A stretch of DNA of 64,000 nucleotides from Hyphomicrobiales bacterium (lineage in GTDB: Bacteria; Pseudomonadota; Alphaproteobacteria; Rhizobiales; NORP267), in contig JAJFGZ010000005.1 in assembly GCA_021775855.1 (NCBI GenBank), forward strand, positions 1 to 64,000. The letters are read 5' to 3'. Positions 6,678-38,401 of this stretch are shown here, in pieces (positions within the stretch are counted from its first letter, which is position 1; the number at the start of each line of letters is the position of its first letter). Both the position numbers and the translations under genes were made by a program. The notes beneath the pieces are model-generated. The model saw nothing but the letters and a program-made list of their open reading frames with translations. It was not told where the DNA came from and made no database searches.

Positions 6678-8213
6678 TCAGAATCTGGGAATATCCGGGA
6701 ACGGTATTTTGCCCCCATGGATATGGATGCGGCCGAGCTCGGCACAGCGGTGCAGCGTCGGGAAGACTTTTCCGGGGTTGAGCAGACCGTCGGCATCGAA
6801 GGCGCATTTGACCCGTTGCTGGTGATCGAGATCGGTTTCCGAAAACATCTCGGGCATCAGGTCGCGCTTCTCGACCCCGACCCCGTGTTCGCCGGTCAAG
6901 ACGCCGCCCACCTCGACGCACAGTCTCAATATATCAGCGCCGAAATCCTCGGCCGCTTCGAGTTCGCCCGGAACGTTCGAATCGTACATGATCAGCGGGT
7001 GCAGGTTGCCGTCGCCAGCGTGAAACACATTAGCGACCCCAAGGCCGTATTTTTCCGAAAGTTCGCGCATTCGTGCAAGAACCTTCGGCAATTGGTGGCG
7101 CGGGATGGTGCCATCCATACAATAATAGTCCGGTGAAATCCGCCCGATTGCAGGGAAGGCCGCTTTACGTCCGGCCCAGAATTTCTGGCGCTCGGGCTCG
7201 TTTTGCGAAACCTGCACATTACTTGCGTTGTTCGCGTCGGCAATCTCTTCAACCCGCCCGATCAGGTCGGTCACCTCTGCTTCCGGACCATCCAATTCCA
7301 CAATGAGAAGTGCCTCGACGTCGAGCGGGTAGCCGGCTTGCGCAAATTCGTCGGCCGCGTGGATTGCCGGCCGGTCCATCATTTCCATGCCGCCCGCTAT
7401 AATCCCGGCGCCGATGATGCTGCCGACGCAGGCACCTGCATCTTCGCTCGACGGGAACCCGATGATCATGGCGCGGGCGGTTTCGGGTTCGCGCAATATC
7501 CTGACGGTCACCTCGGTAATGACACCGAGCAGGCCCTCCGACCCGGTCAAAAGCCCGAGAAGATCGTAGCCGTCGCTGTCCAGGTGTTTGCCGCCTATAT
7601 TTATGATTTCGCCGGTGATCAGGACCAGCTGGAGACCAAGGATGTTGTTGGTGGTGAGGCCGTATTTCAAACAATGCACACCGCCGGAATTCTCGGCTAC
7701 ATTGCCCCCGATGGTGCATGCGATCTGGCTGGATGGGTCCGGCGCGTAATAAAAGCCGCGCCCCTCGACTGCTTTTGTAATGGCGAGATTAGTAACCCCG
7801 GGTTGCACAGTCGCGGTTCGGTTCGCGTAATCGATATCGAGTATCCGGTTGAATTTTGCGAGCCCCAGCAAAACCCCGTCCCCGAGGGGAAGTGCCCCGC
7901 CCGAGAGCGAGGTGCCGGCCCCGCGCGGAACGACCTTTAGACCGGTTTTATGGCAATAGCGGAGTACCGCCGATACCTGCTCAACGGTTTCAGGCAATAC
8001 AACGACGAATGGCAACTGACGGTAGGCCGTCAAACCATCGGATTCATAGACCCGCATCTCGCTCGTCTCTGATATGACACCTTCGCCAGGGACAAGCGCG
8101 CGCAGGTCGCGAATAATTTCGTTGCGGCGGCCAAGGATATCAACATCGAGTTCGGGCATCTCGAGTGCGGAATGTTGATCGAGTGACACGGCCTGCTCCG
8201 GGGCGCTGTTCAT
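6678..8213 (-). CDS. glcD: Glycolate oxidase catalytic FAD subunit
   Basis: This 511-aa flavoprotein oxidises glycolate to glyoxylate. The PCMH-type FAD domain is seen in the middle of the N-terminal half (VPRGAGTSLSGGALP, then CTIGGNVAENSGG). The C-terminal FAD-oxidase domain carries GEHGVGVEKR and ends with DADGLLNPGKVFP. It is the first gene of glcD-glcE-glcF-aceB. It is divergent from a LysR-type regulator with 86 bp between them, which contain a perfect dyad at 8240-8252. A D-lactate dehydrogenase of the same family is a less likely alternative, given the adjacent glcE, glcF and aceB. Confidence 0.93.
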   Translation of the reverse strand: MNSAPEQAVSLDQHSALEMPELDVDILGRRNEIIRDLRALVPGEGVISETSEMRVYESDGLTAYRQLPFVVVLPETVEQVSAVLRYCHKTGLKVVPRGAGTSLSGGALPLGDGVLLGLAKFNRILDIDYANRTATVQPGVTNLAITKAVEGRGFYYAPDPSSQIACTIGGNVAENSGGVHCLKYGLTTNNILGLQLVLITGEIINIGGKHLDSDGYDLLGLLTGSEGLLGVITEVTVRILREPETARAMIIGFPSSEDAGACVGSIIGAGIIAGGMEMMDRPAIHAADEFAQAGYPLDVEALLIVELDGPEAEVTDLIGRVEEIADANNASNVQVSQNEPERQKFWAGRKAAFPAIGRISPDYYCMDGTIPRHQLPKVLARMRELSEKYGLGVANVFHAGDGNLHPLIMYDSNVPGELEAAEDFGADILRLCVEVGGVLTGEHGVGVEKRDLMPEMFSETDLDHQQRVKCAFDADGLLNPGKVFPTLHRCAELGRIHIHGGKIPFPDIPRF

Positions 8214-8239
8214 CTTTTGGTTGACCCTAGCGCAATAAT

Positions 8240-8252
8240 TTCAATAATTGAA
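8240..8252. promoter_or_regulatory. LysR-type (T-N11-A) operator dyad between glcD and the LysR gene
   Basis: TTCAAT-A-ATTGAA is a perfect 6-bp inverted repeat fitting the T-N11-A LTTR box. It lies centrally in the 86-bp divergent region between glcD and the LysR gene. Its position suits autorepression and activation of glcDEF-aceB by the adjacent regulator. The site is seen; the regulatory role is inferred. Confidence 0.6.
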
Positions 8253-8299
8253 CACATAGCGACAAAACTTTTTATTATTTCCAAAAAGGAAATTCAACT

Positions 8300-9223
8300 G
8301 TGACACCTGTCCAGGACATGGAAATTTTCGCCCGGATCGTCACCGCCGGGACAATGACAGCGGCAAGCCGGGAGCTTAGCATATCCCCGGCGGTGGTCTC
8401 AAAGCGTATCCGCCGCCTGGAGGAACGTCTGGGTGTTCGCCTGTTCCAGCGCACAACGCGGCAGATCACGTTGACCGAAGCCGGTCAGGAATATTACCGG
8501 CGCGTTGTTGCCATCCTGGCGAGCATCGACGAAGCCGAGAACGCCATGTCCCGTGGTGCTGATCTGGCCCAGGGGACCATAAAAATCTCTGCGCCTACCA
8601 CGTTCGGGCGGCTCCACATCGCGCCCTATCTCGGGAAATTCATGGAACGCCATCCGGACCTGATGATCGATATCGCCCTGACCGACCATTTTGTCGATCT
8701 GGTTGCCGACGGCGTTGATGTGGCGATCCGGATTGCGGAACTGGAAGATTCAAACCTTGTTGCTAGAAAGCTCGCGCCCAATCACCGGATCCTGTGTGCG
8801 TCCGCCGATTATTTTGCAAACCACGAAATGCCGCAGACTCTGGAGGACCTGTCCAAACACAATTGCCTCGCGGCGACTGCCCAGGATATCTGGCGGCTTG
8901 AGGGTCCGGACGGGCCCGTCGATTTCCGGGTCGGCGGGCGGCTGCTGACCAATTCCAGCGAGGTGGTACACGAAGCCCTGCTTGCGGGGACAGGGATCGC
9001 GCTCCGCTCGACCTGGGATGTGGGGCCAGAACTGAAACAGGGATTGCTGAAAATCATCCTGCCCGAATACCAGGTCAAGACCCGGATCAGCATTTACGCC
9101 GTATTCCCGAGCCGGGAATTTCTGCCCGTCAAAGTTCGGCTATTTATCGATTACCTTTCAGCTATCTATGGCCCAGATCCCTATTGGGACGAAGGCCTGG
9201 ATCTTACGCAATATTTGGACTGA
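8300..9223 (+). CDS. LysR-family transcriptional regulator, probably of glycolate/lactate genes
   Basis: This 307-aa protein has an N-terminal winged helix-turn-helix (residues about 2-60, with AASRELSISPAVVSKRIRRLE and LFQRTTRQITLTEAG) and a C-terminal periplasmic-binding-like effector domain. It is closest in pattern to the LTTRs that start with a short M-x5-F lead. The start is GTG at 8300 behind AAGGA. It lies between divergent glcDEF-aceB and co-directional lutABC and could control both. Glycolate operons in enterics use a GntR protein (GlcC), so a LysR here is a different arrangement. The effector is unknown. Confidence 0.88.
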   Translation: MTPVQDMEIFARIVTAGTMTAASRELSISPAVVSKRIRRLEERLGVRLFQRTTRQITLTEAGQEYYRRVVAILASIDEAENAMSRGADLAQGTIKISAPTTFGRLHIAPYLGKFMERHPDLMIDIALTDHFVDLVADGVDVAIRIAELEDSNLVARKLAPNHRILCASADYFANHEMPQTLEDLSKHNCLAATAQDIWRLEGPDGPVDFRVGGRLLTNSSEVVHEALLAGTGIALRSTWDVGPELKQGLLKIILPEYQVKTRISIYAVFPSREFLPVKVRLFIDYLSAIYGPDPYWDEGLDLTQYLD

Positions 9224-30253: not shown

Positions 30254-31165
30254 CTATTCGAGCTTGAACCTGATCGCCATGTTGATGGTGATCTGGCTTA
30301 ATTCCATGCTGGCGGGCATGGTCGGCAGCGGCTGAACCCTATCGATCATGTTGCGTACTTCCTCGTCGAGGATGTCGAAGCCCGAGCCGCTAGTGATTCG
30401 GAATGCGGTGACGCGGCCGGCCCTGTTGATCGTCAGCCCGATCTGCACCACGCCTTCGATGCTGTCGCGCCGGGCCGATTGGGGATAGCGTCTTGAGCGC
30501 ACCAGCTGACTGTGCAATCTGGTCAGATAGTCGGCCCGTTCTGCGTCGCTGCTGGCATCGGTCCGGGCCTGCTGGTTTTCGAAATTTCGCTGCGCAGCGA
30601 GTGCGGTGCGTTCCGTCCTGACTTCCGGTAGCGGGGCCGCCGCCAACCCGGTATCCACCGGCGGGTCGTCGTGTTCGGGAGCGCCTTCAAGATCTTGCGT
30701 CGGGTCGGGCACAGGTTGATCCGGTTCGGTTTCAGCGGTCACATTTGCCGGCTCGGGAACCGGTTCGGTCAGATCCGCCTCTGGTATTTCCGATACCGCA
30801 TCCACGGGAATCTCAACCGAGGTCGCTTCCGGTGGGGCGTTTTCAGCCTCCAGCCCGGCAGGGCCCGTCGACGGTATATCTGGAGTCGGGCCGTCCGGTT
30901 GTTCCGGCTCAATTGCAGCTGTTTCCGGATTTAGTGGTTCCGGAGGCGCAGCTTCGGGGGAGAGCACCTCCTCCACATTTTGCTCGGCCGTGTCTTCGTC
31001 TCCAGCCCCAGTTTTGGGCGGTGTGCCGAGCGCAACCAGAATGCCTTCGTCACCGTCGGGCGCGGCGCCGCTGGCGTCGGGCACTTCGAATTGCAGGAAA
31101 ATGGCAGCATGGAGCGCGAGGGCCCCCAGAAACGCCCCCGCCAACCAGACCGGCCGGAGCGTCAT
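30254..31165 (-). CDS. tonB: TonB-family energy transducer
   Basis: This 303-aa protein has an N-terminal TM (residues about 5-25), a long Pro/Glu-rich periplasm-spanning linker (about 30-190), and a C-terminal TonB domain (SRRYPQSARRDSIEGVVQIG and later DILDEEVRNMIDRVQPLP). It transmits the proton-motive force to outer-membrane receptors. It is the last gene of exbB-exbD-exbD-tonB, overlapping the second exbD by 4 nt. Confidence 0.9.
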   Translation of the reverse strand: MTLRPVWLAGAFLGALALHAAIFLQFEVPDASGAAPDGDEGILVALGTPPKTGAGDEDTAEQNVEEVLSPEAAPPEPLNPETAAIEPEQPDGPTPDIPSTGPAGLEAENAPPEATSVEIPVDAVSEIPEADLTEPVPEPANVTAETEPDQPVPDPTQDLEGAPEHDDPPVDTGLAAAPLPEVRTERTALAAQRNFENQQARTDASSDAERADYLTRLHSQLVRSRRYPQSARRDSIEGVVQIGLTINRAGRVTAFRITSGSGFDILDEEVRNMIDRVQPLPTMPASMELSQITINMAIRFKLE

Positions 31166-31566
31166 TGCCCGGTCTCCAGGGTCAGCAATACGAGTTCCTC
31201 GACACCCGCCAGGCGGAGCTGTTCGAGGACCCGGATGACCTGGGCCGTCGGCGCGCCGCCGTCCACCTTGAACCGGATCCGGGTTTCCGGATTGCCGGAC
31301 AATTGGCCAGCAATAGCCGCGCGCAATTGCCCGATATCAAACATTTCTTCGCGCAGATAAAGGCTTCCCTCGCCATCCATCACGATTTCAGCAAGGCCGT
31401 TATCCTCGCGCTCGCCGCTTGTGGAAACAGGCGGGGCGACACTAACAAAATCCGTCGGTTCGACCGAGCCTGCCAGCATGAAAAACAGCAACAGCAGGAA
31501 CACAATGTTGATCATCGGCAGATTAAATTCGGGGTAGGCCCGCTGGGTCCGCCGGGGCAGTTTCAC
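31162..31566 (-). CDS. ExbD-type biopolymer transport protein (second copy)
   Basis: This 134-aa protein has one N-terminal TM (NLPMINIVFLLLLFFMLAGS), a small periplasmic domain, and the ExbD/TolR TM aspartate position occupied by Asn (NIVFLLLLFF), unlike the first copy, which keeps Asp. The start is GTG at 31566, overlapping the upstream exbD stop as GTGA. Together with ExbB it forms the proton-driven motor. Confidence 0.88.
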   Translation of the reverse strand: MKLPRRTQRAYPEFNLPMINIVFLLLLFFMLAGSVEPTDFVSVAPPVSTSGEREDNGLAEIVMDGEGSLYLREEMFDIGQLRAAIAGQLSGNPETRIRFKVDGGAPTAQVIRVLEQLRLAGVEELVLLTLETGQ

Positions 31567-31982
31567 TCTGAGTCCTCCCCATCCACCTGCTCGACCAGCG
31601 TGGCATCGGCACCACCCAAATCGTCGATCATATCCAGCAGATCGATACTGTCCTGGAGCGTTACACCAGGGGCAACCCGTACGATGATCGGGCGATCCGG
31701 ATTGGCTCGGAGAACCACACCAAGGGGCAGCGCAAGATCCCTGCCGTCGAATTCATTTCCCCCAAACAATACGCCACGACCATTGGTCAGGGTTAGAGTA
31801 ACGGGGTTTTGACCTTCTTCGCCAACGGTGCCGGGAGGCGGCAGGCTCATTCGGAGCCCGCTCCAGTCGTTGAAACTTGACGCCAACATGAAAAAGATCA
31901 GCAGAATGAATACCACGTCCACAAGCGGGGTCAGGCTGACCAGCGCCCGTCGTGGAGGTTTGGACGTAGCGAATTGAATCAC
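31563..31982 (-). CDS. exbD: ExbD-type biopolymer transport protein (first copy)
   Basis: This 139-aa protein has the ExbD topology: TM segment LTPLVDVVFILLIFFMLASS with the functional aspartate (LVDVVF), then a periplasmic domain. The GTG start at 31982 overlaps the exbB stop (GTGA), giving translational coupling. Two unequal ExbD copies suggest a heteromeric motor. Confidence 0.9.
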   Translation of the reverse strand: MIQFATSKPPRRALVSLTPLVDVVFILLIFFMLASSFNDWSGLRMSLPPPGTVGEEGQNPVTLTLTNGRGVLFGGNEFDGRDLALPLGVVLRANPDRPIIVRVAPGVTLQDSIDLLDMIDDLGGADATLVEQVDGEDSE

Positions 31983-32704
31983 AGTTGAGCCATAGTGGAT
32001 CTGGCTTCCGCCACTCTGGTCTCAGCGGTTCTGGCCGAGCTTGCTCCCGACAGGATGAGGGTGACCGACTGTTCCATGCGGGACACGGTTTTTTCGACGG
32101 CGCCTTCGAACAAACTATGAAAAGTGGCGGCTGGAATGGCCACCACAAGACCGGCCGCAGTCGTCAACAATGCGACCCAGATACCTCCGGATAGGATCGA
32201 CGGATCGACCCGGCTGCCGGCCTCCTCAAGGGCACGGAAGGCTTCAATCATGCCAAGCACCGTGCCCAACAAGCCCAATAGAGGTGCGGTTATGGCTACC
32301 AGCTCAATCGCGCGCAGAAACTGGCGGAGCCCGGCAATTTCCCGGACCGCTTCGATTTCAAGAATTTCCTCGATTGCCGAACGCTGGATGCCTTTGCTCC
32401 GGGCCGTCATGGCACCAGCCATCAGCCGGGATACAGGTGCCGAATTATTCATGACCAAGCCTCTTGCCTGATCTCTTTCGCCTTCTTGCCAAAGCGCGAG
32501 AGCGCGCGATTCACGCGAGGCCTGCACCTTGAGTACCGAGAATTGAAGTATTTTGTAGAGGATTAAAGTCAGGACCAGCACCGACATACCGGCCAGGATA
32601 TAGAGGACCATTCCGCCTTGCCCTGCGAACAGATTGGCGGCGTCGGTTGCCCGATCCATAACACTGCCGCCCTGCGCCGCGGTTTCGGTCGTGGTATTTT
32701 CCAT
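31979..32704 (-). CDS. exbB: ExbB/TolQ-type proton channel
   Basis: This 241-aa protein has three TMs (about residues 30-55, 140-165 and 180-205) and the family segment IELVAITAPLLGLLGTVLGMIEAF. It forms the proton-conducting core of the Ton motor and opens the exbB-exbD-exbD-tonB operon. ATG 32704 is the only sensible start. Confidence 0.92.
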   Translation of the reverse strand: MENTTTETAAQGGSVMDRATDAANLFAGQGGMVLYILAGMSVLVLTLILYKILQFSVLKVQASRESRALALWQEGERDQARGLVMNNSAPVSRLMAGAMTARSKGIQRSAIEEILEIEAVREIAGLRQFLRAIELVAITAPLLGLLGTVLGMIEAFRALEEAGSRVDPSILSGGIWVALLTTAAGLVVAIPAATFHSLFEGAVEKTVSRMEQSVTLILSGASSARTAETRVAEARSTMAQL

Positions 32705-32879
32705 GCTGGTATTTTCTCCGTTCCCGTCAGACGGGCTACGACTAATTGTAATTGGACGAAATCAGGATACGTTCATAGCGAACCGTTCGAGATAAAAAAA
32801 TCGATTTATATCCACCTTGCCATAGTGTTTTGGCCTCGATTCCAACCCCAAATGGGTGCTGGTTAAGGCCCTATCAACC

Positions 32880-33635
32880 ATGTTGGTGCAAATTGTGGCT
32901 ATGGTTTCAGGTATCGGTCCTGTCCCGGTGTTTGCCCGATCAGGCCTTGCAGCCGCGACAGGTGTGGCCGGGTCCGGTCAGGCAATTCAGTCGCGTATCC
33001 CTGACGGCGGTGCTGCTGCACGCGCCACGGAGTCGCGTGCGCCCGCTTCTACGCGTCCGATTGAACCTGTCGAGAATACTTCAAAATCCGCAAAGACGAA
33101 TGATCAGGACCTTTCCAAGGAAGAAGAAAGCACAGTCCGGGAGTTGAAACGGCGCGATACAGAGGTACGCGCCCACGAACACGCCCACGCCACCGCGGGG
33201 GGTGACCTGACGGGGTCGCCGAGTTACGAATTTACCCAGGGGCCTGACGGCAAACGCTATGCGACGGGCGGCGAAGTGCAAATCGATTCGAGTCCGGTGC
33301 GTGGGGACCCTGCTGCAACAATCCGCAAAATGGACATCGTTATCCGCGCCGCTTTGGCGCCCGCCAATCCGTCTTCGCAGGATCAGCAGGTCGCCCGCCA
33401 GGCCCAGCAAGCGCGTACCCAGGCACAAGCAGAGCTCGCAGGCCAGCGGCTCGCGGAAAACCCGGACGGCGGTGAGGAGGCGTTATCAGGCTCAGAATCC
33501 GCGACAAATGAACAGCCCTCCTCCGCCAGGCAATTGCAGGCCCGATCCGTCTATGGACAATCGGAAACCGGCGGCGAAGAAGATATCGCAACCCAGATAT
33601 TCGCTGCCGCGAACGCGCTTTCTGTATTCGCCTAG
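32880..33635 (+). CDS. SprA/CJM1_0395-type putative metalloprotease
   Basis: This 251-aa protein has a hydrophobic N-terminal stretch, a low-complexity Ala/Ser/Pro segment to about residue 75, then the conserved core RRDTEVRAHEHAHATAGG, where H99-E100-x-x-H103 forms a HExxH zinc motif. The next conserved part is GPDGKRYATGGEVQID. A long Ala/Gln-rich helix and a variable tail follow. The family is annotated as a putative metalloprotease; activity has not been shown to my knowledge. The start is uncertain (ATG 32880 or GTG 32856). It converges with the JmjC gene. Confidence 0.8.
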   Translation: MLVQIVAMVSGIGPVPVFARSGLAAATGVAGSGQAIQSRIPDGGAAARATESRAPASTRPIEPVENTSKSAKTNDQDLSKEEESTVRELKRRDTEVRAHEHAHATAGGDLTGSPSYEFTQGPDGKRYATGGEVQIDSSPVRGDPAATIRKMDIVIRAALAPANPSSQDQQVARQAQQARTQAQAELAGQRLAENPDGGEEALSGSESATNEQPSSARQLQARSVYGQSETGGEEDIATQIFAAANALSVFA

Positions 33636-34831
33636 GTCTTTTGTCCGTCCACCAGAACCAGACCTTCACGCACCAGCCGCTCGATCAACACCTGGCGGCT
33701 TTCGTCGTCATCCAGATCCGGAATATCGGACAACGCAAAGGCCTTGTCCTGCAGACAGAATGATACAGCGTTCGCGGCACCAGCGGGAAAGCGCACTTCC
33801 TTGCCATAAAACCGCAGAACAAAATTTTCGTCCTCGTCGTATTGCTGGACCGGAATGGAATGATTGCCGCGATAGGATTTCTCGTTGTTCCTCGACAGGA
33901 AGTTTATCGCTGAGAGGAATTGACCGGAAAATTGGCCGTCGAGCCGATCGCTCCACAAGTGTGGAAAATCCCGTAATTCGTTGGCGATGAAATCTTCATC
34001 TATAAATTCAGCGATCATTTTTGCCCATTTTCGCGATTCTTTTTCGCCACCACTGGCGAGGTCCATCATCGGAATGGCTTCGCGCAGCACCTGGTGTTTG
34101 CGGGACGCGGAATCGATTACCTGGGTCAGCAAACGATACCAGGTCGGCGGATGAAAACCGAGGGTGACATGGATCGAAAATTCCGTGTCGCTGGATTCAG
34201 CCCGGTGCAGAAAACCCTTGGGAACGAAGATCATGTCTCCCTTGGTCATCATGTGTTCGGTAAAGGTACGGCCCTCCATGCTGTCGGGACCTTCATAATG
34301 GTCACCTTCGATCGGGAAGGACAGGAGTTCGGAATCGACGAACCATTTCTTGACGCCGTGGGTTTGCAGGATGAATACGTCGTGGCCGTCAAAGTGTAAT
34401 TTAAAAGCGCGCGCTGCCGGCGGGGTGATATAAATATTACACTGGAAGCGGTACATCGTCTCGGCCTGGAGGGCGATACACATGTCTTTCAGAGGCGGGT
34501 GGCGGACCTGCAGCGCGTCAAGCACAATCGAATGACCACCATGGAGCTTGTCGTAGACCTGTTCCATGTAGGAATGTTTGGCGCCCCCGCTAAATCCCGA
34601 ACGGCGCCCTTCTTCGTCGGTGGCGCTGACCGTGGAAATATGATCCAGGTCGGTTTCAATGAGAAATTCCAGATCGTCCAGTTCCAGCAAACCGTCATAA
34701 TAGCTGGGGTCCTTGCGATCAAAAAACATAGGCTTCTTTTCGAAATAATCGCGAAAGAATTCGTCGCGGGTCATCCCGTGCAATAGGTCTGAAATCTGGC
34801 GGATCGGCTTATTGACAACTGATTTGAGCAT
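33632..34831 (-). CDS. JmjC/cupin-type 2-oxoglutarate oxygenase (RoxA/NO66-like)
   Basis: This 399-aa protein has a JmjC double-stranded beta-helix core. LHFDGHDVFILQTHGVKKW supplies the HxD iron ligands (H146 and D148), and VPKGFLHRAESS supplies the distal ligand H209; the lysine after the motif fits 2-oxoglutarate binding. A winged-helix-like C-terminal region follows, as in ribosomal oxygenases that hydroxylate arginine or histidine in ribosomal proteins. ATG 34831 follows AAAGGTG by 7 nt. A TTGTCA-N17-TAAGGT promoter lies at 34999-35027. Its upstream neighbours are the Asp-rich Tat-signal genes. Confidence 0.85.
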   Translation of the reverse strand: MLKSVVNKPIRQISDLLHGMTRDEFFRDYFEKKPMFFDRKDPSYYDGLLELDDLEFLIETDLDHISTVSATDEEGRRSGFSGGAKHSYMEQVYDKLHGGHSIVLDALQVRHPPLKDMCIALQAETMYRFQCNIYITPPAARAFKLHFDGHDVFILQTHGVKKWFVDSELLSFPIEGDHYEGPDSMEGRTFTEHMMTKGDMIFVPKGFLHRAESSDTEFSIHVTLGFHPPTWYRLLTQVIDSASRKHQVLREAIPMMDLASGGEKESRKWAKMIAEFIDEDFIANELRDFPHLWSDRLDGQFSGQFLSAINFLSRNNEKSYRGNHSIPVQQYDEDENFVLRFYGKEVRFPAGAANAVSFCLQDKAFALSDIPDLDDDESRQVLIERLVREGLVLVDGQKT

Positions 34832-34998
34832 ATTTTTCACCTTTGGTTTGCTGTGCGCACTTGGCAGTACCCTCGCAACCATTCACTGGACTTTACCCCA
34901 AGACCCGCCCGGCAAGTCTTTCTGAATGGCCCACCTCGTTTCTGGTCCTTTGTTCAACCAGATGGCTGCCCGCAAACGTCGTATACCCGCACCAAAAT

Positions 34999-35080: not shown

Positions 35081-35117
35081 AAAAATCAGACCAGCGAAGC
35101 CGCGCCCCGCTGGTCTG
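35081..35117 (-). terminator. Terminator after Asp-rich gene A
   Basis: A perfect 10-bp stem (CAGACCAGCG with CGCTGGTCTG) with an 11-nt loop is followed on the minus strand by ATTTTT. It separates gene A from the JmjC gene. Confidence 0.88.
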
Positions 35118-35181: not shown

Positions 35182-35556
35182 CTAGTCCGAGTCGGCCCCG
35201 TTATACGGATCCGAATCCGCAGGGTCCGAATAACGCCGCTGACGACGACGGCGCCTGCGCGGGGTCCCGTCCCTAATATCTGTGTCATCATAGGGATCGT
35301 TGTCATAGGGATCGTTGGAGTCGGTATCTTTAGCTCCCTGCGGCGTATTTCTCCCGGTACGACCATCCCTGATGTCGGAATCATCGTAAGGGTCGTTGTC
35401 GTACGGGTCGCCCGGATCGCCGTCTTTGGCGGCTGCCGTCTTCGGCATGAGGCTTGTTCCGGCGATGGAAACAAATGCGCCCACGGAACCCAGTTTCAAA
35501 AGGCGTCTTCGATCCAAGTCGCGGACTGTTTCAATATCTTCTTTTTTGAGTTTCAT
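35182..35556 (-). CDS. Asp-rich Tat-signal small protein, paralogue A
   Basis: This 124-aa protein belongs to a five-member local family. Residues 1-43 form a twin-arginine-type signal (R16-R17-R18-L-L-K, hydrophobic stretch, AAA cleavage site). The mature part is two near-identical acidic blocks (residues 50-65 and 82-97, DPYDNDPYDD-S/T-DIRDG) spaced 32 residues apart, then an Arg run (100-108) and an acidic tail SDPADSDPYNGADSD. The Asp spacing is loosely like calcium-binding loops, but no family is recognised. ATG 35556 follows GAGGAAACCGG; upstream codons to 35571 are not conserved in the paralogues. Confidence 0.82.
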   Translation of the reverse strand: MKLKKEDIETVRDLDRRRLLKLGSVGAFVSIAGTSLMPKTAAAKDGDPGDPYDNDPYDDSDIRDGRTGRNTPQGAKDTDSNDPYDNDPYDDTDIRDGTPRRRRRRQRRYSDPADSDPYNGADSD

Positions 35557-35613
35557 CCGGTTTCCTCTCAATATTCCTCGACCACCTGCAGGATCCTCGC
35601 ATTCAGTGGAATC

Positions 35614-35642
35614 ATTCTAATGTCAGAAACAGGAATTGACAA
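35614..35642 (-). promoter_or_regulatory. Promoter of Asp-rich gene A
   Basis: TTGTCA (35642-35637) and TAGAAT (35619-35614) with a 17-nt spacer, about 60 nt upstream of the start. Confidence 0.6.
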
Positions 35643-35671
35643 GGTCGCCGGCGTTGCGCCGGCGCTGAACA

Positions 35672-35709
35672 CAAAAAGCCAGACCCCATGATCGCAGGGT
35701 CTGGCTTTC
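35672..35709 (-). terminator. Terminator after Asp-rich gene B
   Basis: A 9-bp perfect stem (GCCAGACCC with GGGTCTGGC), extended by A-T pairs, is followed by TTTTTG on the minus strand. It lies between genes B and A. Confidence 0.85.
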
Positions 35710-35767
35710 TAAAATTTATTCGGACAGTCGGTCTATCGACAACCAACACCCGATACAGGACTAGATC

Positions 35768-36049
35768 CTAATCGGCGTCGGCTCCGTTATATGGATCGGA
35801 ATCGGCCGGGTCGGAACGGCGCCGGCTTCTGTGGCGGCGGCGCGTGCGGGTGCGGCCGTTTCGGATATCGGAATCATCATAAGGATCGTTGTCATACGAA
35901 TCCGAGGGATCGGAATCATGGGCTCCAGCCTCCTCAGTGGAGAGCACCGTCCCCGTCATTGCAACCAATGCTCCAGCCGACCCGTATTTCAGGAGACGTC
36001 TGCGATCCGGATCGCGAATTGTCTCGATATCGTCTTTTCCCAATTTCAT
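35768..36049 (-). CDS. Asp-rich Tat-signal small protein, paralogue B
   Basis: This 93-aa member has the shared leader (DIETIRDPDRRRLLKYGS), a single acidic block (SDSYDNDPYDDSDIRNG), a strongly basic stretch (RTRTRRRHRSRRR) and the family tail SDPADSDPYNGADAD. It is the most diverged of the four block-containing copies. ATG 36049 follows GGAGGG; the open frame extends to 36103 without conservation. Predicted periplasmic; function unknown. Confidence 0.8.
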   Translation of the reverse strand: MKLGKDDIETIRDPDRRRLLKYGSAGALVAMTGTVLSTEEAGAHDSDPSDSYDNDPYDDSDIRNGRTRTRRRHRSRRRSDPADSDPYNGADAD

Positions 36050-36108
36050 TAGATTGCCCTCCAAAAGACCTGTGCTGCAAGCCTGCATATTCTTCCGCAA
36101 CATGGATC

Positions 36109-36137
36109 AGACTAGAGCAACACATGCCAAAAGACAA
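36109..36137 (-). promoter_or_regulatory. Promoter of Asp-rich gene B
   Basis: TTGTCT (36137-36132) and TAGTCT (36114-36109) with a 17-nt spacer. Confidence 0.45.
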
Positions 36138-36237
36138 TATTTCTCCATCAACTGAGTTTATCGGCCACCCAGGCGGGTTTGCCATAATCATGAAAAAACC
36201 CGACTTACGGAGAATTATCCACTAGCCGGGTATTGGT

Positions 36238-36281
36238 TAAAATGTGTGAGGGGAGACGCCAAGGTGCCTACCCCACACATT
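36238..36281 (-). terminator. Probable terminator after Asp-rich gene C
   Basis: A stem of AATGTGTGGGG pairing with CCCC-CACATT (one bulge) and a loop of about 17 nt is followed by TTTTAA on the minus strand, 20 bp after the gene C stop. Confidence 0.6.
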
Positions 36282-36300
36282 CGAAGAGAACCGCCAGATT

Positions 36301-36573
36301 CTAGTCGGAATCAGCGCCATTATAAGGATCTGAATCGGCTGGATCTGAATACCGGCGGCGGTTGCGGCGGCCGGTGCGGCCATCACGAATATCGGAATCA
36401 TCGTAGCGATCGTTATCATAGGGATCACCGGGGTCGCCGTCTTTGGCAGCTGCTGTCGTAGGTTCCAAAGTTACGCCTGCTATGGTGATGAAAGCACCCG
36501 CAGAACCCAGTTTTAGCAGACGCCGTCGATCCAGATCGCGGACCGTCTCGATATCGTTCTTTTTCAGTTTCAT
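36301..36573 (-). CDS. Asp-rich Tat-signal small protein, paralogue C
   Basis: This 90-aa, shortest block-containing copy has the leader with DLDRRRLLKLGSAGAF, an AAA cleavage site, one acidic block (DPYDNDRYDDSDIRDG), a short basic link (RRNRRR) and the tail YSDPADSDPYNGADSD. It looks like paralogue A with one repeat unit missing. Its 5' leader AGGAAACCGG before the ATG is the same as in gene A, pointing to recent duplication. Predicted periplasmic, function unknown. Confidence 0.82.
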   Translation of the reverse strand: MKLKKNDIETVRDLDRRRLLKLGSAGAFITIAGVTLEPTTAAAKDGDPGDPYDNDRYDDSDIRDGRTGRRNRRRYSDPADSDPYNGADSD

Positions 36574-36654
36574 CCGGTTTCCTTCCCTTGAAATTGTGCT
36601 TGGTATTTCGGTAATTCACTTTCCAGACTGCGAATTGGCCGTTCCAATTTAGAT

Positions 36655-36683
36655 TCTATAACAATCAGGACACTGATTGGCAA
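36655..36683 (-). promoter_or_regulatory. Promoter of Asp-rich gene C with an internal dyad
   Basis: TTGCCA (36683-36678) and TATAGA (36660-36655) are separated by 17 nt. The spacer contains most of the dyad CAATCAG-N4-CTGATTG (36662-36679), which could be an operator or a weak terminator of gene D. Confidence 0.55.
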
Positions 36684-36701
36684 AACATATCCGGGAACAG
36701 T

Positions 36702-37055
36702 TTAGTCGTTATCCGACCCATTATAGGGATCTGAATCGGAGGGATCCGAACGGCGTCGGGACGTTCCGTCCCGGATATCGGAATCATCATAATTATCGTT
36801 GTCATAGGGATCGTTGGAGTCTGTATCCTTCAAACTCTGAGGTTGATTTCGCCCAGTGCGGCCATCGCGGATATCGGAATCATCGTAGGAATCGTTATCG
36901 TACGGATCGCCCGGATCGCCATCCTTGGCAGCTGCCTTTTTCGGAAACAGGCTCGTGCCGGCAATGGAGACAAAGGCGCCGACGGAGCCTAATTTCAATA
37001 ACCGCCTTCGATCCAGGTCGCGGACAGTTTGGATATCGTCTTTTTTTAGTTTCAT
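36702..37055 (-). CDS. Asp-rich Tat-signal small protein, paralogue D
   Basis: This 117-aa copy is the closest to A: the leader DLDRRRLLKLGSVGAFVSIAG is identical, and it has two acidic blocks (DPYDNDSYDDSDIRDG and DPYDNDNYDDSDIRDG) with a near-identical linker. It lacks most of the Arg run (only RRR) and ends SDPSDSDPYNGSDND. ATG 37055 follows AGGGGAAGAATA. Predicted to be exported folded by the Tat system. Confidence 0.82.
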   Translation of the reverse strand: MKLKKDDIQTVRDLDRRRLLKLGSVGAFVSIAGTSLFPKKAAAKDGDPGDPYDNDSYDDSDIRDGRTGRNQPQSLKDTDSNDPYDNDNYDDSDIRDGTSRRRSDPSDSDPYNGSDND

Positions 37056-37105
37056 TATTCTTCCCCTTAAACCCTGCCCAGGGTGTCCGCATATTCAGTG
37101 AGCGG

Positions 37106-37134
37106 ACTGTATGGCACATGCCCAGGATTGGCAA
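37106..37134 (-). promoter_or_regulatory. Promoter of Asp-rich gene D
   Basis: TTGCCA (37134-37129) and TACAGT (37111-37106) with a 17-nt spacer, about 50 nt upstream of the start. Confidence 0.5.
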
Positions 37135-37257
37135 TCAAAGAGAATGCTTTCTCCCCGGCATAACACCTTCAGGAAAAAAGATTTTCCGCTTGCCGCTCTG
37201 CTGAATTCGTTCAAAGGTTCCCGGTAAACAATTTTAATCTCACCTGCTGTAGCTTCA

Positions 37258-38145
37258 ATGACTGATGTTGTCTCCATAGCGGCCGATCGTGGCCGGGGCG
37301 TATTGTACGGCGCCCTGGCCGGAATCGCACTCAGCCTTGGCGGGCTGATCGTTCGCCTGATGAGCGGCGAGACCAGCGGCTGGCAAATGCTGACCTGGCG
37401 AAGCCTGGCGTTTGCTGCGCTGATGTTCGCGATCGCCTTGTTCCGAACCAGGTCACTGCGCCAGATTGTCCGCAATATTGTCGACGCCGGATGGCTTGGC
37501 GTTGGCGTCGCGTTGGCGGTTGGGCTCGGACAGATCGCCTATCTGATGGGCCTGATCCACACCAGTGTTGCCAATGTGACCTTCCTGCTTGGCTCCGCGC
37601 CGGTCGTCGTCGCCTTTGCCGGGTGGCTGGTTCTTGGCGAGCGTCTCTCAGGCAGGGGAATCGTGACACTTGTCGCCGCAATGTCCGGTGTTGCGATCAT
37701 GTTTTCCGGCGGGATCAGCGGCAGCGATGTGCTCGGCGTGGCTTACGCCGCAGGTGCGCTGGCTGCCTACGCATCCATGGTGCTCCTGCTCCGAAAAGCC
37801 GGGCCGGTCGATACCTTCGCTGTGACAGGCGTTGGTGGGCTGCTGTCGGCGATCATTTCGACATGGATTGCGGGAGGCGATTTGGCCATCGTTCCCGCAG
37901 ACGCTGCGCTCAGTGTCGTTTCCGGGGTATTCCAGGTTGGTGCCGGGTTTGCCCTCATTGCCCTTGCGGCACGCTACGTGAAGGCCGCCGAGGTGACGCT
38001 GCTTGTTCTGCTGGAGACCATTCTAGGCCCCCTGCTGGTCTGGATTTTCATTGGCGAGACACCCGCGCCGGTTACGCTCGTCGGCGGTGCGATCGTAATT
38101 CTCAGCGTGGCGGCGTTTGCGATTTTTGCGCGGGAAAAGAGCTAA
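37258..38145 (+). CDS. DMT/EamA-family transporter
   Basis: This 295-aa inner-membrane protein has about ten TMs in two EamA repeats, typical of drug/metabolite exporters. It is divergent from Asp-rich gene D and convergent with gene E, so it splits the family. The substrate is unknown; a link to the Asp-rich proteins is possible only from location. Confidence 0.87.
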   Translation: MTDVVSIAADRGRGVLYGALAGIALSLGGLIVRLMSGETSGWQMLTWRSLAFAALMFAIALFRTRSLRQIVRNIVDAGWLGVGVALAVGLGQIAYLMGLIHTSVANVTFLLGSAPVVVAFAGWLVLGERLSGRGIVTLVAAMSGVAIMFSGGISGSDVLGVAYAAGALAAYASMVLLLRKAGPVDTFAVTGVGGLLSAIISTWIAGGDLAIVPADAALSVVSGVFQVGAGFALIALAARYVKAAEVTLLVLLETILGPLLVWIFIGETPAPVTLVGGAIVILSVAAFAIFAREKS

Positions 38146-38149
38146 GCAA

Positions 38150-38401
38150 CTAGTAGCCGCCATCATCCTCGGTACTGATATCGGCCGGATCCTTGGGCGG
38201 CGGTACGCCGTCCTGCAGGTCTTTGTCATCAGCAGTATTCTGGTCCACCGAACTATGATTGCCGCTATGTTTGGCCAGCGCTGTCTGCGACCATTGGCTG
38301 ACGGTTGTAATCGCTACAAGGGCGCTCACGGACCCAAGCTTCAATAGCCGTCGGCGATCCGGGTCCCGGACTGTTTCGATATCCTGTCTATCCAGTTTCA
38401 C
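38150..38401 (-). CDS. Divergent fifth member of the Asp-rich Tat-signal family, paralogue E
   Basis: This 83-aa protein shares the leader (VKLDRQDIETVRDPDRRRLLKLGS, twin-arginine at residues 16-18) but not the mature repeats: the mature part is KHSGNHSSVDQNTADDKDLQDG followed by a Pro/Asp-rich tail ending EDDGGY. The start is GTG at 38401, six nt after GGAG. Conservation limited to the leader suggests the signal or N-terminal segment is the shared functional element, or that this copy has decayed. Confidence 0.7.
   Translation of the reverse strand: MKLDRQDIETVRDPDRRRLLKLGSVSALVAITTVSQWSQTALAKHSGNHSSVDQNTADDKDLQDGVPPPKDPADISTEDDGGY

Follow-up and report, generated by a model that had tools for sequence, protein, structure and literature searches.

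A JmjC oxygenase gene is linked to genes for Tat-leader, aspartate-rich repeat peptides in several bacterial phyla, suggesting a RiPP-like class

The JmjC family PF08007 includes the ribosomal oxygenases NO66 (RIOX1), MINA53 (RIOX2) and YcfD, and JmjC oxygenases also act on ribosomally synthesized and post-translationally modified peptides (RiPPs), as BipG and BpmG are proven RiPP ornithine hydroxylases in biphenomycin (PMC12707348, PMC12257519). Domains resembling the RiPP recognition element (RRE) are reported fused to PF08007 JmjC domains in fish and algae, with the closest bacterial homologues (~30% identity) in RiPP-like contexts (PMC12710340, mSystems 2025). In the bufferins and other MNIO RiPPs (PMC12452194) the signal peptide doubles as the leader and an iron enzyme modifies the precursor before export of a periplasmic product, and a regular D-x-D spacing characterizes the Ca2+-binding Asp repeats of EF-hand loops, dockerin and thrombospondin type 3. 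Here, we report that short peptides with a leader of the twin-arginine translocation (Tat) type and Asp-rich repeats, represented by five minus-strand genes (A to E) in a stretch of 64,000 nucleotides from a Hyphomicrobiales bacterium (the window; contig JAJFGZ010000005.1, assembly GCA_021775855.1), are linked to a JmjC oxygenase gene across several phyla. The functional linkage is strongly supported, and it is probable that the pair represents a RiPP-like class in which a JmjC oxygenase with an RRE-like domain (JmjC-RRE) hydroxylates Asp-rich cores before Tat export.

The window enzyme is like NO66, MINA53 and YcfD in its whole-length fold, including a C-terminal winged-helix domain, and in its Fe(II)/2-oxoglutarate (2OG) residues, but it differs from them in having a Tat-leader Asp-repeat peptide as its partner. 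BipG and BpmG offer the parallel of a JmjC oxygenase on a RiPP precursor, but they belong to a multi-enzyme cluster, modify Arg/Orn in an FRF motif and involve neither a Tat leader nor Asp repeats. The MNIO systems combine a DUF692 enzyme with a partner protein, Sec export and mostly Cys cores, whereas the linked enzyme here is of the JmjC_2 type, the leader is a Tat leader, and the window peptides are rich in Asp and free of Cys. The window block also differs from the Ca2+-binding repeats in its spacing and in being paired with an oxygenase, and neither the window peptides (up to E=1) nor the relatives (up to 0.1) matched an EF-hand, dockerin or thrombospondin type 3 Pfam profile. The JmjC-RRE proteins of PMC12710340 are the same kind of enzyme as the window oxygenase and, as far as that article was covered, make it the nearest published statement found; the covered parts differ from the present account in describing no precursors, Tat leaders, repeats or leader motif. 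A survey of literature on JmjC, Tat or PF08007 with RiPP, mostly without subscription journals, returned no description of this peptide-enzyme family. The components belong to known kinds for whose combination no earlier description was found, and the family looks widespread and largely undescribed.

A peptide search of all genome contigs with the window family alone returned no relative, and a window-family profile gave only chance-level matches outside the window genome in a sample of 385 evenly drawn alphaproteobacterial genomes. The peptide type of the window is therefore a narrow one, and it was the enzyme that led to the other types. An enzyme profile was scanned against the genomes of about 85,000 species of Bacteria and Archaea, and the 80 best matches (79 distinct) together with the window gave 80 loci. 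Peptides were counted with a detector, fixed before counting, that required a short open reading frame (ORF) with a Tat-like signal and at least two D.D motifs. In 60 of the 80 loci a detector peptide lay no more than 2 kb from the JmjC gene, and detector ORFs numbered 79 in 300 kb near JmjC versus 3 in 753 kb farther away on the same loci, a 66-fold difference. One of the three distant ORFs (L043) is itself a peptide with the leader motif described below, and two of the 79 near ORFs look spurious (L078 7153, L086 10971) and were left out of the composition analysis. Further peptides, from actinomycetes, Chloroflexota and others, were picked by eye and stand outside the 60/80 count. The repeats vary between lineages: TDSDPNDGPGxGRG in Acetobacteraceae and Erythrobacteraceae, DSDTGAYADPxGxGRG in various alphaproteobacteria, ADIDNGxWTDxGxCPRGxGG in the Rhodobacter group and SDSDTGxxADPTGCGR in Granulosicoccaceae. 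When neighbour families were compared across the loci, no other neighbour was conserved across phyla. A short precursor with a conserved leader and a variable repeated core thus adjoins its candidate modifying enzyme, as in RiPP loci, and we provisionally place the family among the RiPPs on these sequence features.

Because some of these loci had themselves inspired the detector, replication is important. In the sample of 385 genomes the enzyme profile gave two sharply separated groups, 12 genomes with matches at E<=1e-101 and 40 whose matches were at 1e-62 or weaker. A detector peptide was found in 10 of the 12 loci of the strong-match clade but in 0 of 18 loci of other ribosomal-oxygenase-like enzymes (p=2e-6), and L136 is an eleventh peptide-bearing locus of the clade, missed by the detector only for its long mature part. 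The Rhodobacter-type peptide profile matched 7 of the 385 genomes, and all seven were among the 12 with the enzyme clade (hypergeometric p=3e-12, not corrected for kinship); the association hence holds in the reverse direction too, the peptide implying the enzyme. In some genomes with one enzyme gene, additional precursors are spread over other contigs (five contigs in G427), and one enzyme may be able to serve several scattered precursors, as would be expected for modification in trans.

This genomic context argues that the substrate of the enzyme is not a ribosomal protein, and the peptide is very probably the substrate. It has been weighed against an explanation that sees the peptides as ordinary Ca2+-binding repeat proteins exported by Tat, with a loose likeness to EF-hand, dockerin or thrombospondin type 3 loops, and the adjacent enzyme as a ribosomal-protein hydroxylase, placed there by chance or co-regulation. 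The D-x-D-x-G-x-x-x-D spacing of the Rhodobacter-type repeats and the whole-length similarity of the enzyme to NO66 and MINA53 would agree with such an arrangement, but the linkage spans several phyla and gene orders, the other ribosomal-oxygenase-like loci are free of peptides, Pfam profiles for Ca2+ binding found no match, and the leader motif is kept in peptides without Tat signals, all of which make this explanation very unlikely.

The oxygenase is 399 amino acids (aa) long, or 416 aa if an in-frame upstream ATG at 34882 is used. Its family is predicted to be catalytically competent, because the HxD...H iron site (H146 and D148 in the 399-aa form) and a Lys are invariant in 80 of 80 relatives, and the JmjC fold with iron site and 2OG residues that marks the ribosomal oxygenases is present. 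By sequence the nearest solved relatives are NO66 and MINA53, followed by YcfD. An AlphaFold2 model of the oxygenase (pLDDT 92.7) aligned along its entire length with NO66 (VIA Z 30.7, 390 residues, root-mean-square deviation 6.0) and matched MINA53 with Z 28.5 and YcfD with Z of about 19. The last 86 residues of the enzyme, folded alone, gave pLDDT 89.5 and had their best structural matches in NO66 and MINA53 (Z 8-12), and outside the ribosomal oxygenases nearly all matches were RiPP recognition elements: MccB (7.9), TigE (7.7), PbtF (7.6), TbiB1 (7.3), ThcOx (6.8), lasso B1 (6.6), NisB (6.4), TruD (6.2), a chain of the McbBCD complex (6.0) and PqqD (5.5). These RRE matches cover 72-82 of the 86 residues of the predicted model at Z 5.5-7.9, a range below 8 that may reflect a common arrangement, although the predominance of RREs among the matches is telling. 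The RRE-like domain is reasonably likely to bind the leader.

In most motif-bearing peptides the motif L-x-D-x-[DE]-I-x-T lies some 7-8 residues ahead of the twin arginines; its form in the window is K-L-K-K-E-D-I-E-T. The motif occurs also in Tat-less peptides beside the enzyme, in actinomycetes (MATSLNDDDITVIHP, MARTLNDEDIRVV, MATSLNPEDIRVL) and in Chloroflexota (SLNDNQIYT), and it is seen in Aquimarina (LKLSDFEIDN) as well; it is therefore more than the n-region of a Tat signal. On plasmids of Streptomyces clavuligerus an annotated 48-aa gene (MDDKKTSLEPDEIEVIPPVSTPDFVIADNDPSDPPIAIADPDPFDPVI), with the leader motif and the same D-x-D-P-x-D core, adjoins genes for the enzyme, an S9 peptidase and an ATP-binding cassette (ABC) transporter in a conventional RiPP layout. 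By their sequence, the peptides are very likely Tat-exported: twin-arginine motif, h-region and AxA-type site were found, TatC is encoded in the genome, and the relative L039 passes TIGR01409. Tat substrates often use leader-binding chaperones, and the RRE-like domain together with the conserved segment ahead of the Tat signal could belong to a JmjC-RRE protein that serves mainly as a proofreading chaperone holding the leader, its oxygenase activity being secondary or meant for another substrate. We regard this as most improbable, as the catalytic HxD...H and Lys are invariant in all 80 relatives and Tat-less actinomycete peptides are also paired with the enzyme.

We propose instead that the oxygenase would bind the leader segment K-L-x-x-x-D-I-x-T via its C-terminal RRE-like domain and would hydroxylate side chains of the Asp-rich repeats, most likely at the Asp beta-carbon in D-x-D-P-x-[DN] motifs. 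The same leader would then act as Tat signal and be removed by signal peptidase, so that no dedicated protease or exporter would be needed. Several observations weigh against this proposal. Human NO66 and MINA53 have the same C-terminal fold, so an RRE-like fold is no proof of leader binding. The leader motif accompanies the C-terminal signature of the enzyme in 40 of 50 versus 0 of 22 cases, a correlation that comprises only 1-3 independent contrasts on the tree; it was set aside as independent evidence for being too clumped. Peptides of Erythrobacter, of Roseomonas type and of Granulosicoccus adjoin the enzyme without the leader motif, and the window peptides score under the Pfam Tat cut-off. 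Hydroxylation and its target are furthermore read from sequence and context, and Arg, which occurs in 94% of mature regions, could be the target in many lineages.

Hydroxylation is nevertheless the likely reaction, and beta-hydroxylation would, by analogy, be the economical chemistry for the enzyme's fold. In 87 mature regions Asp and D.D were present in 87 and were the sole universal features; Arg was missing from 5, Asn from 7, Pro from 3 and His from most. The core of the S. clavuligerus peptide lacks all three of Arg, His and Lys. With Asp and D.D in every mature region and no Arg in this core, Asp is the economical guess for a shared reaction and our best guess for the modified residue, held at about even confidence. 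A system of the same two genes in which Arg is hydroxylated, for example in D-G-R or G-x-G-R-G of the repeat, would accord with the frequency of Arg, with G-x-G-R-G in most repeats and with the annotation of the fold relative YcfD in the PDB as an L16 arginine hydroxylase; the five Arg-free mature regions and the S. clavuligerus core, set against the constant presence of Asp and D.D, make it unlikely.

After export, the hydroxylated Asp-rich repeat protein might act at the cell wall or elsewhere in the periplasm, where it could plausibly bind Ca2+, Fe3+ or another cation, although metal binding by the repeats is speculation to which we give rather less than an even chance. An Asp-repeat precursor in L156 (1093-1902), on a contig away from the enzyme gene, is fused to a C-terminal PG_binding_1 domain (Pfam 1.6e-18), and lipobox-like sites follow the twin arginines in seven loci (L037, L058, L079, L082, L083, L090, L106). 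Together with the lack of a conserved peptidase, protease or dedicated exporter in the proteobacterial loci, these features favour a mature protein that would stay in the envelope. Release of the hydroxylated product as a small bioactive peptide, such as a siderophore-like chelator or an antimicrobial, is suggested by the peptidase and ABC transporter of the S. clavuligerus locus and by an ABC-transporter-like ORF of roughly 600 aa that lies no more than a few kb away in 4 of 5 actinomycete loci checked, but neither a peptidase nor a dedicated exporter is conserved among the proteobacterial loci, and the lipobox-like sites and peptidoglycan-binding domain point to envelope tethering, so we consider release improbable.

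A preliminary description of the window had recognised the five minus-strand genes, their common Tat-type leader and, in four of them, the Asp block and tail. ORF coordinates and 29 invariant alignment columns bear this out. Peptides A to E have in common K-L-x-x-x-D-I-x-T-x-R-D-x-D-R-R-R-L-L-K, one form of the leader segment being MKLKKEDIETVRD. Two copies of the 16-residue block D[PS]YDND.YDD[ST]DIR[DN]G (one form: DPYDNDPYDDSDIRDG) are present in A and in D and a single copy in B and in C, and the tail SDP[AS]DSDPYNG[AS]D.D is found in A to D. Peptide E, formerly described as having no block, has indeed no intact one but retains a degenerate block, QNTADDKDLQDG, and the degenerate tail DPADISTEDD; likewise, the cleavage site given as AAA is so in A, C and D, while it is AGA in B and ALA in E. 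Synonymous to non-synonymous codon changes between paralogues were 29:5 (A/D), 36:9 (A/C) and 29:11 (C/D), an excess of synonymous change which indicates that the paralogues are proteins under purifying selection and not chance ORFs. Gene A has a good ribosome-binding site, GAGGAAACCGGATG. The same description had not recognised the family, and a Pfam/NCBIfam search of the peptides named no family beyond weak Tat-signal matches. Neither additional copies in the same genome nor a window peptide on plasmids were found when looked for. Its suggestion that the genes encode precursors of a modified peptide, with a conserved leader, gains good support from the neighbouring oxygenase and its relatives. 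As the step that precedes export, enzymatic modification is a better reading than folding or cofactor loading. The description had overlooked the gene for the JmjC oxygenase, which comes next on this strand, and the peptide set is far larger than the window shows. Features are listed in Table 1.

Table 1. Coordinates of the peptide genes, the oxygenase and adjoining features in the window
Feature	Position	Strand	Description
Peptide gene A	35182..35556	-	Tat leader, two Asp blocks, Arg-rich link, tail
Peptide gene B	35768..36049	-	Tat leader, one block, tail
Peptide gene C	36301..36573	-	Tat leader, one block, tail
Peptide gene D	36702..37055	-	Tat leader, two blocks, tail
Peptide gene E	38150..38401	-	Same leader as A-D, degenerate block and tail; GTG start; beyond EamA gene
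JmjC-domain Fe(II)/2-oxoglutarate oxygenase, proposed peptide hydroxylase	33632..34831	-	Pfam JmjC_2 (PF08007) 2.1e-21
JmjC_2 catalytic domain	34133..34462	-	Pfam, residues 141-250 of 416-aa reading
C-terminal RRE-like winged-helix domain, proposed leader-binding	33635..33892	-	Predicted fold beta-beta-beta-alpha-alpha
EamA-family transporter	37258..38145	+	Between D and E; syntenic in genus
Terminator-like hairpin	35087..35117	-	Between gene A and oxygenase gene; 14-pair stem then ATTTTTAA

Relatives of the leader and block in other genomes, which the preliminary description had proposed to look for, do exist. Two genomes of the same genus have a single peptide orthologue each, with the gene order SDR, EamA (divergent), peptide, JmjC and SprA-related (convergent) in both, and in G082 (L017/L033 locus), which belongs to a different family of this order, a divergent peptide (MKLKKTDIETVRDMNRRRLLKL... 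DAVDNDPGDDRDIADG) directly adjoins a JmjC protein that is 51% identical. The window has the same frame with five copies, of which E sits between the SDR and EamA genes; given the one copy in the genus relatives, an expansion from one to five in the window genome is likely. A role of EamA in the peptide system is doubtful, and EamA was rejected as an obligate partner: the EamA protein beside the L017 pair is a distant paralogue, only 26% identical, and EamA is absent from the neighbour families common to other loci. The SprA-related protein (PF12118, 32856-33635) is convergent with the JmjC gene, a synteny kept in the genus, and genes for a TonB-like C-terminal protein and an ExbB/TolQ-like protein were noted by eye upstream of it (whole run 30254-33635). 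Because of the hairpin between them, it is uncertain that gene A and the oxygenase gene form a single operon, and they may not share one transcript; the hairpin is weak evidence, since such sites were about equally common in shuffled sequence. Another strong hairpin followed by T (AAAGCCAGACCC...GGGGTCTGGCTTTTT) was seen by eye 3' of gene B (35670-35710, minus strand); it was not in the terminator-scan list, probably because of its long loop.

Related JmjC genes were observed in further settings. In Actinomadura rupiterrae (L045) two tandem JmjC genes (6681-7889, 7959-9194) lie upstream of one leader-motif peptide. On Rhizobium etli IE4803 plasmid pRetIE4803b (L180, 1218-6520) a related JmjC gene occurs with genes for a radical SAM/SPASM protein, hypothetical proteins and a GNAT acetyltransferase, a run that looks like a different RiPP-type cluster. 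On a Dolichospermum plasmid (L181, 2661-5146) the surroundings of a related JmjC gene include a 71-aa peptide that has a leader of the double-glycine type (QQLNGG), an SDEDI segment and an Asp-free core, and a JmjC homologue of Phycisphaeraceae (L100, 6773-9191) is immediately 3' of a radical-SAM-like gene, another possible RiPP context.

Taken at its widest, the proposal describes a RiPP class spanning several phyla, whose fused JmjC-RRE enzyme makes poly-hydroxyaspartyl repeat proteins that would be Tat-exported in modified form and bind cations in the envelope, one enzyme serving several scattered precursors; in this full form we hold it tentatively, somewhat below an even chance. If true, it would constitute a broad and minimal RiPP class of a precursor and one enzyme, with the Tat signal in the role of leader and signal peptidase in that of leader protease, and bacterial NO66-like JmjC proteins would gain a testable substrate. 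It would also suggest that the C-terminal domain of the ribosomal oxygenases, also that of human NO66 and MINA53, and the RRE of RiPP enzymes are versions of one peptide-holding domain, and poly-hydroxy-Asp proteins would add a new type of material to the bacterial envelope.

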